Shown: positions 20,101-29,446 of the stretch, in pieces
How the letters are laid out: each line of letters opens with the position of its first letter
How positions within the stretch are numbered: position 1 is the first letter of the stretch
Source of the DNA: a virus
Reading direction: 5' to 3' (one strand)
DNA: 32,474 nucleotides
IMG/VR virus record: IMGVR_UViG_3300037155_000019
Coordinates: 1-32,474 of that record
The notes under the pieces: model-generated
What the model saw: only the letters and a program-made list of their open reading frames with translations
Told to the model about the DNA's origin: nothing
Databases searched by the model: none
Position numbers and translations under genes: made by a program

Positions 20101-22896
20101 ATGCCAAATCTACCAATACCCACTGATGTTCTCCCGATAGATGACGGGACAGATCAATATGAAGTCGAGGAACAGCCCGACGGCTCTGCGGTGGTTAATA
20201 CGAACGCTGATGACAATCAATCAGAGCCGGAAAGCACAGGCTTTGGCGATAACCTGGCTGAAACTCTGGATGTGGCGTTCCTTACTTCGCTAGGTATTGA
20301 CCAGGCTGACCTGATTGATCTTGACAAGGAAGCCCGCAAGAATCGCGACAAGCAACAGGCCGAGGGCATCAAGAAAACCGGCCTAGGCAATGAATCACCC
20401 GGCGGTGCTACCTTTGACGGTGCCAGCAAAGCAGTTCACCCGATGCTGGCTAAGGGCTGCGTTGACTTCGCTTCACGAGCGATCAAGGAACTATCACCGG
20501 CTGCAGGCCCGTGCAAGACGCACATTGTCGGCGAGAGCACGGATATCAAGATCGATAAGGCGGAGCGCAAAAAATCGTACATGAATTGGCAGATGACAAC
20601 TCAAGTACGCGAACAGCGACCCGAGTTTGAGCGACTGCTTAGTCAACTGCCTTTGGGCGGATCTCAATACAAGCGTTGGTGGTGGGACGCCATGCTCGAA
20701 CGTCCACGCACCGAGGTTGTTTACATCGATGATGTCTTCCTGCCCTTTGCGCAGTCTGACTTCTATACCAGCCCTCGGGTTACTCATCGCCAATGGGTGA
20801 GTGAACAGGAATTCGAGTCTCGCATTGACAGCGAGTTGTACCTCGATCTGGGTCTATCGTCGCCACAATCCCCCGATCAATCCCTTTCCAAAGTCGCCAC
20901 GGACAAGGTAGAGGGAAATTCAGAGCCTTCTACCGCCTACAACGAGGAAGGCCAGCGCGAAATCTACATGAGTTATGTGGATTTGGCGATTGATGACGAT
21001 CCAATTACTCAAGGGAGAACAGCTCCCTACATTCTACACATCGAAAACGATAGTCAGAAAGTGCTCGGTTTGTACCGTAATTGGAAGGAAGATGATGAAG
21101 ACTTCGCCAAAAAGCACTGGATGGTCGAGTATTGTTTCATCCCTTGGCGGGGAGCTTATGGGGTCGGACTATTCCACCTCATCGGTAGCCTCGCTTCAAG
21201 CGCTACAGGAGCACTTAGAGCACTGCTTGACTCGGCACATATATCTAACTTTCCAGGTGGCCTCAAACTTAAAGGTGGCAGAACATCAGGTCAGACGGTA
21301 CAGATCAACGCCACCGAGCTTGCTGAAATTGACTCTCCCGCCGGAGTAGATGATATTCGTAAACTGGTGATGCCGTTCCCGTTTAACGGGCCGTCACCAG
21401 TGCTTTCGGCTTTGCTTGACTGGCTAACTCAACAAGGTGAGAGCGTTATCGCCACAGCTAGCGAAAAGATAGCCGATGGCGGGGCAAATATGCCCGTCGG
21501 CACTGCGTTGGCTTTGATCGAGCAGGGTTCTGTAAACTTTTCGGCTATCCATGCACGCTGCCACAATTCATTGAAGATGGAGCTTGAGATACTTCACCGG
21601 CTGGATGAAGAGAATCTGACGGACGAGGAGATTGTTGAAGACCTGGGTGAGTTGGTCGTGTCGAAGTCGGACTTTCAAGGCCCGATGGACATCATTCCAG
21701 TGTCCGACCCCAACATCTTCAGTGAAGCGCAGCGTTATGCTCAGTTGCAGGCAGTCATGCAGTTGGCTGATAACCCGAAGTTTGGGCCACTATTCAAGCC
21801 CGACAAGGTGTTGCAGCGTGCCCTGAGGTTGTTGCAGATACCGTCACCGGAAGAGATTGCAAATCTGTCAAAAGACCCATCGAGACTGGGCGCGCTGGCA
21901 GAGAATTACTTGGTATGCAGTCCTGAACCGGGGCCGATCAAAGTTTATCTCGAACAGGATGATTTGTCTCACATGAAGACGCACCTTACGTTCTTGACAA
22001 GCCCGATGTTCGGCTCAAATCCGTTGATAGGCCCGTCGGCCTTTGGCCCGATGATGGTGCACATCCGGGATCACCTGATGAACTTCTACAAAAAGCACAG
22101 TCAGGCCGCGACCGACGCTGCGTATATGACCGTGCAAGCACAGGGCCAGACAGTGACGCGAGAAGAGGCAGAGGTACAGGGCGCTGCCTTTGCGGACCAA
22201 GTTGCTGCGAACGTCTTGGGTCCACTGATGCCGGTTCTACAGAAAGCCCAACAGACAGCGATGCAGTTCGCTCCGAAGCCGCCGATCGATCCAAGTATTA
22301 CTGCTCAGATTGCAGCGCAGCAAGCACTTCAAAGTGCAACGATTGCGGCTCAAGAAAAGATCGAACAGGCCAAAATCACAGCCCAGCAAACAGTCGAGCA
22401 CGCGAAACTTGCTATGGATGTGCAAGATGCTGACAAGGAACGTCAATTCAAGCTGGAAACGCAGACTAACGCACTCCAAGCGGATCAAACCAGATGGCAG
22501 GCCGAGCAAGATCAAAACGACCGGGCGACCGTCATGGCCACAGCAATTGAGAAGCAGTCTCTGGATATGAATGCCAAGATTGAGCAATTCCAGGCCGATG
22601 TCAAGGCTCGCGCTGATGATACGAATAATCAGGCAGTGGCTTACCGGCAGCAAATGAAAGCGGATACCGATGCGCAGTTGCTGGTGTTGGGTGAACAGTT
22701 AAAAGCACAGGCTGCACAACTGACTCCGCCTGATTTGGTGTCTCAACTTGCACCTATACTGCAGGAGATGCAGGCCAACACGCAGACTATGCTGCAACAA
22801 TTAAGAGACGACTTGAACGCTGTAAAAGAAGCATATGTAGCGCCTGTGTTGAGTTTAGGCGGTAAAATTAAATCTGCAATCGGTTTGAAACCATAA
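20101..22896 (+). CDS. Portal protein, unusually large (931 aa)
   Basis: It follows terL and precedes scaffold and capsid, the standard portal position. The N-terminus is acidic, and the core holds portal-like segments ('GGATFDGASKAVHPMLAKGC', 'YVDLAIDDDPITQGRTAPYI', 'MVEYCFIPWRGAYGVGLFHL', 'ANMPVGTALALIEQGSVNFS'). The last 200 residues (about 735-905) are Q/A/K-rich heptads forecasting a long coiled-coil barrel extending into the capsid. Most portals are 400-750 residues, so the barrel is extended. No ribosome site precedes ATG 20101; TAAAAT ends six bases upstream. Confidence 0.9.
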   Translation: MPNLPIPTDVLPIDDGTDQYEVEEQPDGSAVVNTNADDNQSEPESTGFGDNLAETLDVAFLTSLGIDQADLIDLDKEARKNRDKQQAEGIKKTGLGNESPGGATFDGASKAVHPMLAKGCVDFASRAIKELSPAAGPCKTHIVGESTDIKIDKAERKKSYMNWQMTTQVREQRPEFERLLSQLPLGGSQYKRWWWDAMLERPRTEVVYIDDVFLPFAQSDFYTSPRVTHRQWVSEQEFESRIDSELYLDLGLSSPQSPDQSLSKVATDKVEGNSEPSTAYNEEGQREIYMSYVDLAIDDDPITQGRTAPYILHIENDSQKVLGLYRNWKEDDEDFAKKHWMVEYCFIPWRGAYGVGLFHLIGSLASSATGALRALLDSAHISNFPGGLKLKGGRTSGQTVQINATELAEIDSPAGVDDIRKLVMPFPFNGPSPVLSALLDWLTQQGESVIATASEKIADGGANMPVGTALALIEQGSVNFSAIHARCHNSLKMELEILHRLDEENLTDEEIVEDLGELVVSKSDFQGPMDIIPVSDPNIFSEAQRYAQLQAVMQLADNPKFGPLFKPDKVLQRALRLLQIPSPEEIANLSKDPSRLGALAENYLVCSPEPGPIKVYLEQDDLSHMKTHLTFLTSPMFGSNPLIGPSAFGPMMVHIRDHLMNFYKKHSQAATDAAYMTVQAQGQTVTREEAEVQGAAFADQVAANVLGPLMPVLQKAQQTAMQFAPKPPIDPSITAQIAAQQALQSATIAAQEKIEQAKITAQQTVEHAKLAMDVQDADKERQFKLETQTNALQADQTRWQAEQDQNDRATVMATAIEKQSLDMNAKIEQFQADVKARADDTNNQAVAYRQQMKADTDAQLLVLGEQLKAQAAQLTPPDLVSQLAPILQEMQANTQTMLQQLRDDLNAVKEAYVAPVLSLGGKIKSAIGLKP

Positions 22897-22910: not shown

Positions 22911-23156
22911 ATGGTACAAGCAATCAATCAGCACAAGGCCATCGCGATGGGCCTGAAGCCTGCCTTCAAGTCCGGCGGCTCTGTCGGCAAGTACGGCAAA
23001 GAAGGTTCAAAGTCTGAAGAGGCCCATGACAAGAAGGAAATGGCCTTCGGCGGTCGCGTGCCCTTCCTGAAGTCTGGCAAGAAGGACAGCCCGATCGAGG
23101 TTGCCAAACGCTCGAATGGCATTCCTGGGTTTAAGAAGGGCGGGAAGAGTTGTTAG
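22911..23156 (+). CDS. Small Lys/Gly-rich protein, 81 aa
   Basis: ATG 22911 follows TGGAGTAACTC. The product (MVQAINQHKAIAMGLKPAFK) is basic, with repeated short motifs: 'FKSGGSVGKYGK', 'FGGRVPFLKSGKK' and 'FKKGGKSC'. It is probably disordered and may bind DNA or the head interior. It is first in the accessory run after portal. No family recognised. Confidence 0.75.
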   Translation: MVQAINQHKAIAMGLKPAFKSGGSVGKYGKEGSKSEEAHDKKEMAFGGRVPFLKSGKKDSPIEVAKRSNGIPGFKKGGKSC

Positions 23157-23332
23157 AACGAATCCTGCGGGAACTTATCGAAAGACGCGCCGCCATGGCG
23201 CTAGAAGTTTTCGATAGTCCCCCAAAAGATTGGCCTGAATTCAAACAGCGATTCGGTCAATATTTAGAGTTAGATGCACTCATCGGTATCGTAAAAGAAG
23301 CGATGAGCGGACTAGAGATCGACGAAAAGTAG
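23150..23332 (+). CDS. Small helical protein, 60 aa
   Basis: Begins with TTG 23150, overlapping the previous stop, with AAGGGCGGGAAG upstream: (M)LERILRELIERRAAMALEV, then 'DWPEFKQRFGQYLELDALIG'. Two helices, acidic and basic faces. I recall similar short proteins between portal and scaffold of other podoviruses. Unknown role. Confidence 0.6.
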   Translation: MLERILRELIERRAAMALEVFDSPPKDWPEFKQRFGQYLELDALIGIVKEAMSGLEIDEK

Positions 23333-23389
23333 TTCGTCCTTGCCGGTGCGCTGCGGCCTTGTCAGCGTTGTTTTGTAGGAAAACATTTT

Positions 23390-23650
23390 ATGAACTTTGG
23401 CTCAGCGCTTGAGGCGCTAAAAGGCGGCATGAAAGTGTCTCGGGCTGGTTGGAATGGCAAAGGCATGTTTCTATTCCTTGTGCCTGGCAGTCAATTCAAG
23501 GTCAATCGCGCACCGTTACTCGGAATTTATCCTGAGGGAACGGAGATTGATTACTGCCCGCACATTGACATGAAAACGGCAGATAACAAGGTGGTGCCAT
23601 GGCTCGCGTCACAGACTGACGTTCTCGCGGAAGATTGGGAATTGCTATGA
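23390..23650 (+). CDS. DUF2829 protein, Tad2-like anti-Thoeris candidate
   Basis: 86 residues: 'FGSALEALKGGMKVSRAGWN' and 'GKGMFLFLVPGSQFKVNRAP', then 'YCPHIDMKTADNKVVPWLAS' and 'QTDVLAEDWELL'. This is the DUF2829 pattern (xFGxALxxLKxGxKVxRxGWNGKGM ... HIxMKTADxxxVPWLASQTDxLAxDW). Tad2, a DUF2829 protein, sequesters the cyclic-ADPR signal of the Thoeris defence system. The family match is strong; the activity of this homologue is inferred. TAGGAAAAC upstream serves ATG 23390. It sits between virion genes, so it may be made late. Confidence 0.88.
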   Translation: MNFGSALEALKGGMKVSRAGWNGKGMFLFLVPGSQFKVNRAPLLGIYPEGTEIDYCPHIDMKTADNKVVPWLASQTDVLAEDWELL

Positions 23651-23940
23651 ACCGCACCATAGACCCAAGGATATTCGCCACTGTATGCGGTGCGCTTATT
23701 GGCAGCGACGCCAAAACAGCAACCAAGTATCTACTGCCCAACATGGTCGTGCGGGCAACGTGGCACAACAAGCCACACTCCAAAAACCTGTTTGAGTTGA
23801 TGGTTGTCGGTTATGGCAACCCGAACTATCTTGAACGTGATTTTGTCCGCGTCTGCAAGAAAGCTGGCGAGACATTCCCGGTAAAGAAAATCCAGTTTCG
23901 ACCGTGGCCTAAGAAGGCTGCAAAGAAGGGCAAGGTATGA
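23647..23940 (+). CDS. Basic phage protein, 97 aa
   Basis: ATG 23647 overlaps the DUF2829 stop, so the two are coupled. MNRTIDPRIFATVCGALIGS is followed by 'ELMVVGYGNPNYLERDFVRV', 'CKKAGETFPVKKIQFRPWPK' and a lysine-rich tail. I recall the 'PNYxERxFxxxCKKAGExFPVKK' string as a conserved phage pattern without function. Its coupling makes it a candidate co-factor in the same process. Confidence 0.75.
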   Translation: MNRTIDPRIFATVCGALIGSDAKTATKYLLPNMVVRATWHNKPHSKNLFELMVVGYGNPNYLERDFVRVCKKAGETFPVKKIQFRPWPKKAAKKGKV

Positions 23941-24140
23941 AAAACTACTACAGCCCTTCGCTCGCTCAAATCATCGGTACACCGCCCGCATTTACTCATA
24001 CGAAGCAAACCCGTTTCATTAACGCATCCGCTGAACGCCGTGCCCGACGCAAGCTGGTCAAAGCAATCGGCATCAGGCAAGTAAAACGCGCTACTTATCT
24101 TATGCGCGCTCAATTGGAGACAAATAATGGCAGCAGGTGA
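23937..24140 (+). CDS. Small basic protein, 67 aa
   Basis: ATGA overlap with the previous gene. MKNYYSPSLAQIIGTPPAFT leads to a strongly basic helix (ERRARRKLVKAIGIRQVKRA). Likely binds nucleic acid or the membrane surface. Its end overlaps the GroES-like gene by 14 bases. Unknown function. Confidence 0.6.
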   Translation: MKNYYSPSLAQIIGTPPAFTHTKQTRFINASAERRARRKLVKAIGIRQVKRATYLMRAQLETNNGSR

Positions 24141-24576
24141 AGTGGTCAACCCTTATGGGCGCGGCCTAGACGTGACCGACAAGTCACTAGACGAGATGTT
24201 TCCCAAGATCGATCCTGAATTCGTTCCCTTCGGACATCGCGTCGTAGTCCAACTGCGTCGCGTGGTCAGCAAGACAGCCTCAGGCATCATCCTGTCCAAG
24301 GACACCAAAGAGACTGAGGCATACAACTCAACCATTGCTCTGCTGGTTGCTGTTGGCCCGCTGGCATTCAAGAATCGCGCTACTGGCGAGCCGTGGCCCG
24401 AAGGGACCTGGGCGGTTCCTGGGGATTACGTTAAGGTTTCCCGCTGGGGTGGTGAACGCTGGACGGTGGACCTCGACGACGCGCTAGAACCAGTAATGCT
24501 AGCTATCCTGAGCGACGGCGACTTGATTGGCAAATACACAGGGGACGTACGCAAGGTGCGTTCTCATATGGTATGA
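24127..24576 (+). CDS. GroES-like co-chaperonin (Cpn10 fold)
   Basis: 149 residues. 'FGHRVVVQLRRVVSKTASGI' followed by 'ILSKDTKETEAYNSTIALLV' and 'AVGPLAF' matches the Cpn10 pattern: the first strand, then a mobile loop (about 48-66) with a GIIL hydrophobic anchor like the GIVL of GroES. 'VPGDYVKVSRWGGERWTVDL' and 'EPVMLAILSDGDLIGKY' match the remaining strands. An extra 30-residue N-terminus and an insert near 80-97 are unlike bacterial GroES. It may join host GroEL to fold the capsid protein, as T4 gp31 does. Start ATG 24127 follows TTGGAGACAAATA. Confidence 0.85.
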   Translation: MAAGEVVNPYGRGLDVTDKSLDEMFPKIDPEFVPFGHRVVVQLRRVVSKTASGIILSKDTKETEAYNSTIALLVAVGPLAFKNRATGEPWPEGTWAVPGDYVKVSRWGGERWTVDLDDALEPVMLAILSDGDLIGKYTGDVRKVRSHMV

Positions 24577-24689
24577 CTGGGCAACAGTTACTCCAAAAGC
24601 GACTCAAGAAGGCTTGGGCCAAATATGTCAGATCGCTTGAGAGGCTAGCTAAAAAGCCGTGGGTCCCTGTTTTCAAAGACGTAGTATGA
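24573..24689 (+). CDS. Basic mini-protein, 38 aa
   Basis: ATGA overlaps at both ends (24573 and 24686). MTGQQLLQKRLKKAWAKYVR is followed by SLERLAKKPWVPVFKDVV: one strongly basic amphipathic helix. Position between the co-chaperonin and the paralogous pair suggests it is a real coupled gene. Unknown function. Confidence 0.6.
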   Translation: MTGQQLLQKRLKKAWAKYVRSLERLAKKPWVPVFKDVV

Positions 24690-25081
24690 AGCAGTCATAT
24701 TCATTCAGCCATCAGGATGTGGCATGTTCCTCAGGCGCGTCTTCACCTAAAGCAGCATGGTACAACAAGCATATTCGCAAGGTTGCTAGATGGGTTCTAA
24801 AGGCAGAGTTGGCGCATATGGATGCCTGCTACAAATATCAAACTGACTTAGGTATGGCTCACTTGAAAATTATCGACGGTTTTCAATATGGGCAAGACAA
24901 AAGCCACGACGTGATTGAATCGCTGTACTCATTAGCGTATCAACTTATGAGTCCTGAACAGCGGAAATATTTGGAACTATCGCTTGGGCTTCCTAATTTA
25001 ACCGACTCAGGTTTAGAAAACCTAAATCCATATGATCCCAATTTAGAAAACCTAAATCCATATGATCCCAAGAAAGGATAA
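24686..25081 (+). CDS. Paralogue A of a small helical family, 131 aa
   Basis: ATG 24686 (MKQSYSFSHQDVACSSGASS) overlaps the previous stop. The core 'AWYNKHIRKVARWVLKAELA' and 'DVIESLYSLAYQLMSPEQRK' matches the 26537 gene's 'RWVLRYELA' and 'EVIEALYSIAWEHMTPKQRE' at similar spacing, so the two are homologues. The C-terminus contains a ten-residue tandem repeat (LENLNPYDPN twice) encoded by a perfect 30-bp duplication. No known domain. Confidence 0.75.
   Translation: MKQSYSFSHQDVACSSGASSPKAAWYNKHIRKVARWVLKAELAHMDACYKYQTDLGMAHLKIIDGFQYGQDKSHDVIESLYSLAYQLMSPEQRKYLELSLGLPNLTDSGLENLNPYDPNLENLNPYDPKKG
25012..25071 (+). repeat. Perfect 30-bp tandem duplication in coding sequence
   Basis: Unit 25012-25041 is repeated exactly at 25042-25071, within the C-terminus of the 24686 gene. 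Being a multiple of three, it lengthens the tail by ten residues without breaking the frame. Identity without silent changes means it is recent. Confidence 0.95.
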
Positions 25082-25087
25082 GCAAAA

Positions 25088-26005
25088 ATGACAATCGAAG
25101 AACAACCGGAAGAAAAGCTACCCAAAGGCGAAGCAAAGCCTGATGAGGTGGTCGAACACGATCCCATCGAAGGCGTAGAAGACGAGGCCACAGCCAAGGT
25201 CGATACCGAGCTTGACGAAGCTGCGACTGAGGATGAGCGAGAGGAGATTCGCACCCGGCGGCGTGCTGAACGCAAGTCACGAAGCCAGCGCAATCGTGAG
25301 AGAGTCGAGACCCTTGAGCGAAACCTTCAGGCTGTAATCGACCAAAACAAGACCCTGCAACAGCAGGTGTCAGGCATTCAGAATATGAATGTCGGCTCGC
25401 AGCTTGCACAGGTTGACGCAGCCATAGACACGGCAAACAAAGCCGCAGAGCACTTCAAGGGTGTCATAGCTGCAGCGGCTACCCGCAATGATGGCCGAAC
25501 GATTGCGGAGGCCACAGAGTACATGATTGCCAGCAGGCAACGGGCGAACGACCTTTCGGCGTTCAAGCAAAACGCTACCCGCGCCATCAATGCACCGAAG
25601 CCGCTGAATCCCGCGCTGATAAGCAAGTCTCAGGAATTCCTTGCTAAGAACAAGTGGTACGGCGGGCCGACGAGTTCTGATCCTGATAGCAAAGTTTTGA
25701 CGGCGCTGGACAATAGCCTGACCGCTGAGGGGTGGGACCCGACAAGCGATGCCTATTGGTCAGAGCTTGGAAAACGATCAGAGAAGTATCTGGCGCACCG
25801 GTCGCAAGGTGCTCAAGGAAAGCAACGCAGTCCGGTGTCGGGCGGATCATCTGGCGGGTCTGGTGGGTCTGGTGACAGCACTGCATTCACGCTGTCTAAG
25901 GAGCAGGTGGATGCTATCAAGTCTGCAGGCATGTGGGACGACGCCACAAAGCGCGCAAAGATGATCAAGAACTATCAACAGTACAACAAACAATCGAGAG
26001 GTTAA
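25088..26005 (+). CDS. Head scaffolding protein
   Basis: 305 residues between portal and capsid. The N-terminus is very acidic (EEQPEEKLPKGEAKPDEVVE), followed by a basic coiled coil (about 55-100: RRRAERKSRSQRNRERVETL). The centre is alanine-rich helix, and 'FLAKNKWYGGPTSSDPDSKV' resembles scaffold proteins of podoviruses. Then a flexible SGGSSGGSGGSG linker leads to a C-terminal helix-turn-helix with lysines (ATKRAKMIKNYQQYNK), which should bind the capsid protein. AGGATAAGC serves the ATG. Confidence 0.8.
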   Translation: MTIEEQPEEKLPKGEAKPDEVVEHDPIEGVEDEATAKVDTELDEAATEDEREEIRTRRRAERKSRSQRNRERVETLERNLQAVIDQNKTLQQQVSGIQNMNVGSQLAQVDAAIDTANKAAEHFKGVIAAAATRNDGRTIAEATEYMIASRQRANDLSAFKQNATRAINAPKPLNPALISKSQEFLAKNKWYGGPTSSDPDSKVLTALDNSLTAEGWDPTSDAYWSELGKRSEKYLAHRSQGAQGKQRSPVSGGSSGGSGGSGDSTAFTLSKEQVDAIKSAGMWDDATKRAKMIKNYQQYNKQSRG

Positions 26006-27675: not shown

Positions 27676-28704
27676 ATGAAATACCTTACTCTTTTGGCCT
27701 CCGTTGTAGTTGGTCTGCTTGCCGTTTTGGGCGAAAAGATCCATGCCGCCCTCTTTGGTTACATGGTTCGCACGGGCTTCATTGCTTGCGCGGCCCCTAT
27801 GCGATCAACTGACTTCCGGGCCATTGTCGAGCCCATCCTGAACGAGTTCTTCGATGGCGTTTACGACCTTCGCAAAGACGAGTGGAAGCAAGTCTTTGAC
27901 GAACGAACCGCGACTATCGAACGTGCCTACTTTGAAGAGCCCGTCGGTTATGGCTTCAGTGCAGCTCCCGAGCTTCCTGACGGCATGCCGGTGACGTATC
28001 AACAAGGCGGTATCCTGTTCACCAAGCGCTACAACTACAAGGTGTTCGGCCTTGCGTTTGCGCTGACGAAAGTCCTGGTTGAAGACGGCGACCATATCAG
28101 CATCGGTGCGACGTTCTCGAAGCACCTGGCTCAGTCGCTGATTGAAACCAAGGAAACTCGCACTGCCAACGTCCTGAACCGGGCCTACAACAGCTCGTAT
28201 CTTGGCGGTGACGGCGTGTGTTTGGGAAGCGCTAGCCACCCGATCATTGGCGGCACCTTCAGCAACATCCTGGCTACGCCTGCGGCTCTGTCGCAAACGT
28301 CGCTGGAGCAGGCGCTGATTCAAGTCCGCAAAGCGGTTGACAACAACGGCAAGAAGATTCGCCTGACTCCTGAAAAGCTGGTCATTAGCCCGGACAACAC
28401 GTTCCAGGCCGAGGTCTTGCTGAAATCGGTCTTGCGTTCGGGCACTGCCAACAACGACATCAACCCAGTCAAGAGCATGGGCTCGCTGAGTGCTGAAGCC
28501 GCTGTGTTGTCGCGTATGACCTCTGCAACCGCCTGGGGCATCAAGACCGATGCTCCTGAAGGCTTGAAGCTGATCGTGCGTCGCAAGCTCCAAAAGAGCA
28601 TGGAAGGCGACTTCGAGACCGATTCGATGCGCTATAAGTCAACAGAAAGGTACATCGAGGGGTGGACGGACCCACGTGCGTATTTTTCGACACCCGGCGC
28701 TTAA
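27676..28704 (+). CDS. Major capsid protein with hydrophobic N-terminal leader
   Basis: 342 residues. From residue 41 the sequence 'PMRSTDFRAIVEPILNEFFD' and 'GVYDLRKDEWKQVFDERTAT' matches a phage major-capsid family, and 'SLEQALIQVRKAVDNNGKKI' then 'RLTPEKLVISP' is the HK97-type central region. Before it lies a 40-residue leader with a hydrophobic stretch (LTLLASVVVGLLAVLG, about 4-19), unusual for a capsid protein. The start is well supported (AAGGAG eight bases from ATG 27676), and ATG 27763 or 27799 lack a ribosome site. Confidence 0.9.
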   Translation: MKYLTLLASVVVGLLAVLGEKIHAALFGYMVRTGFIACAAPMRSTDFRAIVEPILNEFFDGVYDLRKDEWKQVFDERTATIERAYFEEPVGYGFSAAPELPDGMPVTYQQGGILFTKRYNYKVFGLAFALTKVLVEDGDHISIGATFSKHLAQSLIETKETRTANVLNRAYNSSYLGGDGVCLGSASHPIIGGTFSNILATPAALSQTSLEQALIQVRKAVDNNGKKIRLTPEKLVISPDNTFQAEVLLKSVLRSGTANNDINPVKSMGSLSAEAAVLSRMTSATAWGIKTDAPEGLKLIVRRKLQKSMEGDFETDSMRYKSTERYIEGWTDPRAYFSTPGA

Positions 28705-28744: not shown

Positions 28745-29446
28745 ATGAGTAACACCACACAACACCCGCAAAAATGTTCAATTAGCGGGTGTTCTAATTT
28801 GGCGATAACAAAAGGCTTGTGCGACATGCATCGGAAACGCATGGAAAGACATGGGCATGTATTGCAAACTAGGCCTGCTGATTGGGGTCTTTTAGAGAGG
28901 CATCCTCTTTACCAGTCATGGCGACAGCATTTTAGGAAAACGTCAAAACCAGACCCAAGATGGCTTGATTTTTCTACTTTCGTTAATGATGTCGGCGAGA
29001 GACCGACAAATAGACATTGGCTTTGTAAACTTGATAAAAAACTTCCCATAGGCCCGGATAACTGGTACTGGAGAAACCCGGCTTATGATTCGATAGCAAG
29101 AGAGGATAAAAGGGCTTATGCGAGGGAATACGCGAAGGCTTTTAGGAAAGCTCATCCAGATTATTCATTCAATGCTGGGCTGGTTGCAAGGTATGGAATT
29201 AACACTGATAAATATGTTGATCTTCTTGAATCTCAGGAAGGCGTTTGTGCAATATGCGGAAAGCCAGAAATTAAGGTTGACTCGCGAACTAAAAACGTAC
29301 GGAAACTATCAGTGGATCATTGCCACAATTCCGGAAAGATTAGAGGGCTGTTGTGCACCGCGTGTAATACGTCTTTAGGTGGGTTCAACGATAGTCCTGA
29401 TCTTTTGCAAAAGGCGATTGAATACTTGAGAAAAAATGGTGTGTAA
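28745..29446 (+). CDS. Endonuclease VII-type homing endonuclease
   Basis: 233 residues. The N-terminal zinc-like site has C11, C16, C26 and H29. The C-terminal third is the endonuclease VII/HNH fold: 'YVDLLESQEGVCAICGKPE', 'LSVDHCHNSGKIRGLLCTAC' and 'NTSLGGFNDSPDLLQKAIEY'. The VDHCH histidines and the cysteine pairs (CAIC, CTAC) are the catalytic and zinc residues. The gene is AT-richer than its neighbours, stands alone between virion genes and has its own promoter, all signs of a free-standing mobile gene. Confidence 0.92.
   Translation: MSNTTQHPQKCSISGCSNLAITKGLCDMHRKRMERHGHVLQTRPADWGLLERHPLYQSWRQHFRKTSKPDPRWLDFSTFVNDVGERPTNRHWLCKLDKKLPIGPDNWYWRNPAYDSIAREDKRAYAREYAKAFRKAHPDYSFNAGLVARYGINTDKYVDLLESQEGVCAICGKPEIKVDSRTKNVRKLSVDHCHNSGKIRGLLCTACNTSLGGFNDSPDLLQKAIEYLRKNGV

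Follow-up and report, generated by a model that had tools for sequence, protein, structure and literature searches.

Why would a virus carry a gene for what looks like an inhibitor of Thoeris defense among the genes for its own virion, and which signal would the product of such a gene capture? The question arises at positions 23390-23650 (plus strand) of a 32,474-base fragment of an uncultivated virus (the whole stretch analyzed here, hereafter the window), where an 86-aa ORF that starts with ATG and contains 'MKTADNKVVPWLASQTD' was read in a first-pass annotation as carrying the full DUF2829 pattern and as a Tad2-like anti-Thoeris candidate. The pattern is indeed present: the corresponding Pfam profile (PF11195; DUF2829 has been renamed 'Tad2-like' and is also titled 'Thoeris anti-defense 2-like') matches the protein with an E-value of 7.5e-28 and 97.3 bits (cut-off, 25 bits) over profile positions 1-72 of 73. 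The ORF also matches PHROGs 1048 (2.7e-31) and 872 (2e-29), while PADLOC and NCBIfam gave no match; a phmmer search of the PDB returned Tad2 chains at E-values of 7e-24 to 2e-15, the best being MoTad2 (7e-24), SPO1 Tad2 (5e-19), SptTad2 (6e-18) and AcrIIA7/HgmTad2 (3e-16). A Shine-Dalgarno-like AGGA (23377-23380, plus strand), read from the sequence, lies 9 bases 5' of the ATG. Against the seven homologs compared, pN was 0.10-0.17 and pS 0.77-0.96, which means that synonymous sites are saturated and that dN/dS is well below 0.1; that is, the ORF is, as judged from its substitution pattern, a real gene maintained under strong purifying selection. We claim no promoter of its own for tad2, since the matches of a promoter and terminator scan were no more numerous than in shuffled sequence.

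The predicted structure leads to the same family. An AlphaFold model of the single chain, built from 47 sequences of the window and viral contigs, reached a mean pLDDT of 96.5, and the comparison with Tad2 that the first-pass annotation had proposed as a check returned 24 Foldseek matches with E-values of 0.001 or lower, every one of them a Tad2 structure in the PDB (the following match was at only 0.63). TM-scores of 0.67-0.79 for these 24 matches (normalized by query length) show that the protomer fold is present. The top match was 9eib (MoTad2 with His-ADPR, 49% identity) and the third-ranked one 8wjd (SptTad2-cGG), with 8smf (SPO1 Tad2 with 1''-3' gcADPR) found at 7.6e-7. Identity to the characterized Tad2 members is only about 49%; all 17 positions that MoTad2, SPO1 Tad2, SptTad2 and HgmTad2 have in common in the alignment are nonetheless kept in the window protein (F3, A6, G13, R18, G20, W21, N22, G23, K24, M26, F27, W71, S74, D77, A80, D82 and W83), and R18, W21, W71, D77 and D82 are invariant in 163 of 163 aligned homologs. 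Many of the 17 positions belong to loops and a helix described as lining the gcADPR pocket (review, PMC12043709). Conservation of the pocket, on which the earlier reading had been made to depend, thus holds for the beta1-beta2 loop, the last strand and the loop into the C-terminal helix, the region being delimited from the review rather than from ligand coordinates, and the GWNGK loop, W71, S74, D77 and the C-terminal DW are all among the kept core residues. Hence, sequence, fold and the conserved core residues all give strong support to the assignment to the Tad2 family; the family is a known one and the gene itself is an ordinary member of it.

The position between portal and scaffold genes was likewise confirmed, with the scaffold gene recognized by synteny and position, and a GroES-like gene was found to share the interval. 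All ORFs from the portal to the capsid gene described here are on the plus strand. The portal (head-tail connector) gene (20101-22896, 931 aa) was recognized by tblastn to annotated phage portal proteins (43-44% to Caulobacter phage RW and others, including records named 'head to tail connecting protein' or 'portal protein'). It is followed by a small Gly/Lys-rich ORF (22911-23156, 81 aa), which by eye resembles a small ORF at the same place in relatives, and by a 60-aa member of the small s62 family (23150-23332; s62 profile E-value 8.4e-7 among 7 window ORFs, 17.5 bits), a family that directly precedes GroES in relatives. Downstream, a 97-aa ORF (23647-23940) overlaps the tad2 stop by 4 bases (ATGA), an arrangement that suggests translational coupling within one operon, and the two are probably co-translated. 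This ORF had no family match and has three viral relatives (L267-L269, 60-63% identity), beside which tblastn found no Tad2; an obligate partnership with tad2 was rejected on this ground, and the ORF may be a further accessory or anti-defense gene. The next ORF (23937-24140, 67 aa) overlaps both of its neighbors and had no relatives among the loci compared. The GroES-like co-chaperonin gene (24127-24576; PF00166 at 7.9e-6, phrog_3188 at 2e-7) is a constant part of the head module of the lineage, being found in 61 of the 61 relatives that have the interval. Between it and the scaffold gene lies a 140-aa ORF (24659-25081) with no confirmed relative in viral contigs, the end of which (25020-25081) holds a short tandem repeat (LENLNPYDP, twice). 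The scaffold-like ORF itself (25088-26005, 305 aa), named from its place and not from a family match, has homologs at the same place in relatives, and the product of the major capsid protein gene (27676-28704; phrog_4523 at 2.9e-10) matches the capsid proteins of Caulobacter phage and Manatee Spring at 72-74%. Directly after it comes an endonuclease VII/HNH-type gene (28745-29446; phrog_2914 at 2.7e-31) that looks like an inserted (homing-type) endonuclease, given that in the relative L011 the next virion gene closely follows the capsid gene. Searches of the window for tRNAs and Rfam families found none.

Comparison with relatives indicates how tad2 came to lie here. By portal and capsid proteins the window is related to the Caulobacter phages RW, RLK, KcrB and GB2A, with Roseobacter, Pelagibacter and Planktothrix phages more distant, and the gene order in relatives is portal, small ORFs (including s62), GroES-like, scaffold, two more genes, and capsid. 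Only one of the 52 capsid-anchored viral loci that have this interval carries tad2 (L092), and a search with Tad2 itself added eight further interval loci that have the gene; tad2 is an accessory gene in this phage lineage. In 53 loci without tad2, s62 and GroES are adjacent (gap of 104 bases or fewer), as opposed to a gap of about 790 bases in the window that holds tad2 and two other ORFs. The insertion point is not constant either: tad2 lies 3' of GroES in L021, L037, L042 and L067, 5' of s62 in L063, L077 and L092, and between the two in the window. On the Tad2 tree, which rests on few columns and in which many forks are weak, the interval copies require 8 label changes (bootstrap range 7-9), of which the well-supported branches force at least 3, and the window copy groups nearest to copies from outside the interval. 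Because three different positions are used and the interval copies are not monophyletic, tad2 probably entered the interval repeatedly, as opposed to descending from one old insertion. Relatives also carry other inserts between portal and scaffold, i.e., three large ORFs in L093 (3750-7130) and an HNH-like ORF in L099 (1726-2172), and the interval looks, on account of these, like an accessory hotspot.

Alternatively, the protein might be a virion or assembly component (part of the head, or packaged and injected) that has kept the Tad2 fold, as its place within the portal-capsid operon and the presence of other family members in virion modules might suggest. We consider this reading highly improbable. 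Of the 52 related intervals, 51 are without the gene, which is thus dispensable for assembly, and for this reason a core virion protein was rejected; in addition, close relatives (L082 and L083) lie in replication-gene neighborhoods of other phages, and the core common to the ligand-binding Tad2 proteins is intact. The family as a whole was assessed in a sample of 22 annotated phage records with Tad2-family genes, which were used because profiles based on a handful of labelled TerL, portal and MCP seeds did not reach far enough to classify every neighborhood. The earlier view of a location among virion genes as unusual agrees with the 18 of these 22 members that are found elsewhere (three of the genes, counted outside the virion-module cases, being near terminase or lysis genes), but it needs to be softened, since four are inside head, packaging or tail modules (between portal and capsid in phiAH14a, just after the capsid gene in KPPK108.1, between terminase and a DUF1073 gene in IME346, and among virion genes in Momine) and the interval studied here has been occupied on several occasions. 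Some Tad2-family proteins, about 160 aa long, were also observed to have an extra N-terminal domain (L180, 3752-4234, phage N4 gp49; L171, 3773-4243), this domain being common to N4 gp49 and phiAH14a.

Which signal the protein would bind is a narrower question. The solved members vary in ligand according to their PDB entries (gcADPR isomers for SPO1 Tad2, 1',2'-cADPR and cGG for HgmTad2, cGG for SptTad2, and histidine-ADPR for MoTad2); consequently, cyclic ADPR cannot be assumed, and the earlier reading, correct about family membership, was too narrow about the ligand. With SptTad2-cGG so high among the structural matches, the same family and fold could also imply a broad sponge that additionally or mainly blocks CBASS via cyclic dinucleotides, like SptTad2 and HgmTad2. 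However, cyclic dinucleotide binding in these two proteins has been credited to a long insertion between strands (PMC12043709); the stretch between strands 2 and 4 is clearly longer in both of them in the alignment, whereas it spans 27 residues in the window protein and 25 in SPO1 Tad2 and MoTad2, so that the dinucleotide-type insertion is absent from the window protein and anti-CBASS activity appears unlikely. Moreover, SPO1 Tad2 does not bind 3'3'-cGAMP (PMC11722364), and overall we regard a CBASS sponge as very unlikely. Inhibition of type II Cas9, the activity first reported for AcrIIA7, would be another possible role given that AcrIIA7 carries DUF2829 (PMC6739104) and is among the PDB matches, but AcrIIA7 matches the window protein less closely than MoTad2 or SPO1 Tad2 do and has been solved (as HgmTad2) with 1',2'-cADPR and cGG bound, and just one of its homologs was found in a genome that has II-A self-targeting spacers (PMC6739104). 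An anti-CRISPR role is, in our view, scarcely credible. As to gcADPR or His-ADPR, the evidence points both ways: MoTad2, which binds His-ADPR, is the most similar protein overall, but in the loop leading into the C-terminal helix the window protein has SQTD, as do SPO1 Tad2, SptTad2 and HgmTad2, where MoTad2 has SVSD.

Hence, we favor with considerable confidence the hypothesis that the gene, an accessory one within a late virion operon, encodes a sponge of the Tad2 type that would capture a Thoeris signal derived from ADP-ribose and would be made together with the capsid. The anti-Thoeris function is probable from family, fold and core residues. By family precedent, the protein would assemble into a homotetramer, in which two ligand pockets lie between protomers, and would bind, but not degrade, the ADP-ribose-derived second messenger made by the TIR (ThsB) proteins of Thoeris; with the messenger bound, the ThsA effector would stay off. 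Lying in a late virion operon and coupled to its neighbor, tad2 would be made along with the capsid protein, a timing that we infer from the gene arrangement. Early expression had been expected of an anti-defense gene, but late expression also fits a defense triggered by capsid: the phage major capsid protein activates staphylococcal and streptococcal Thoeris (PMC12578639), so that the late placement of tad2 is not paradoxical, and a capsid-sensing Thoeris would fire at the time when the sponge would appear. The repeated arrival of tad2 in the portal-scaffold interval suggests, more generally, that counter-defense genes need not be early if the defense senses the late capsid.

The window protein also belongs to a distinct subfamily. 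Of the 95 homologs at least 60% identical to it, 94 share a strand-2-to-4 stretch that is exactly 27 residues long and carries a near-invariant VNRxPLLGIYPEGTEIxY motif, and H58 (94 of 95) and D60 (93 of 95), two positions that vary in other Tad2 proteins, sit on the strand said to border the pocket; part of this conservation is expected, as the sequences were gathered by similarity to the window protein. The stretch is unlike that of every solved Tad2, and no subfamily member was among the PDB matches. It is tempting, albeit speculative and on balance unlikely, to propose that the subfamily has its own signal specificity, perhaps binding a TIR product different from those known, and that repeated insertion next to capsid genes would link the sponge to the capsid as the trigger of Thoeris. 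A large environmental subfamily with a distinct, conserved pocket-adjacent segment and no structure among the PDB matches makes the ligand an easily tested question.

Compared with the named systems, the window protein has the fold, core residues and 'WLASQTD' loop of SptTad2 and HgmTad2 (AcrIIA7; PDB 8wjd, 8kbi-8kbm), which differ in carrying the longer insertion. SPO1 Tad2 (gp34.65; PDB 8sme, 8smf, 8smg) has the same fold and a strand-2-to-4 stretch of similar length, and its 'SQTDVLAEDW' tail and 'KTADNK' strand are identical to those of the window protein, but it has N25 and F60 in place of G25 and D60 (window numbering here and below), is without the VNRxPLLGIYPEGTEI segment, and its gene sits in a small-gene cluster instead of among virion genes. 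MoTad2 (also ModTad2, from a Myroides odoratus prophage; PDB 9eib, 8v3e), the ligand of which is His-ADPR (title of 9eib; PMC13299392), has T70, V75, Y58 and A60 where the window protein has P70, Q75, H58 and D60; it is the closest of all by both sequence and fold, sharing the short strand-2-to-4 stretch and an identical 'GWNGKGMF' loop.
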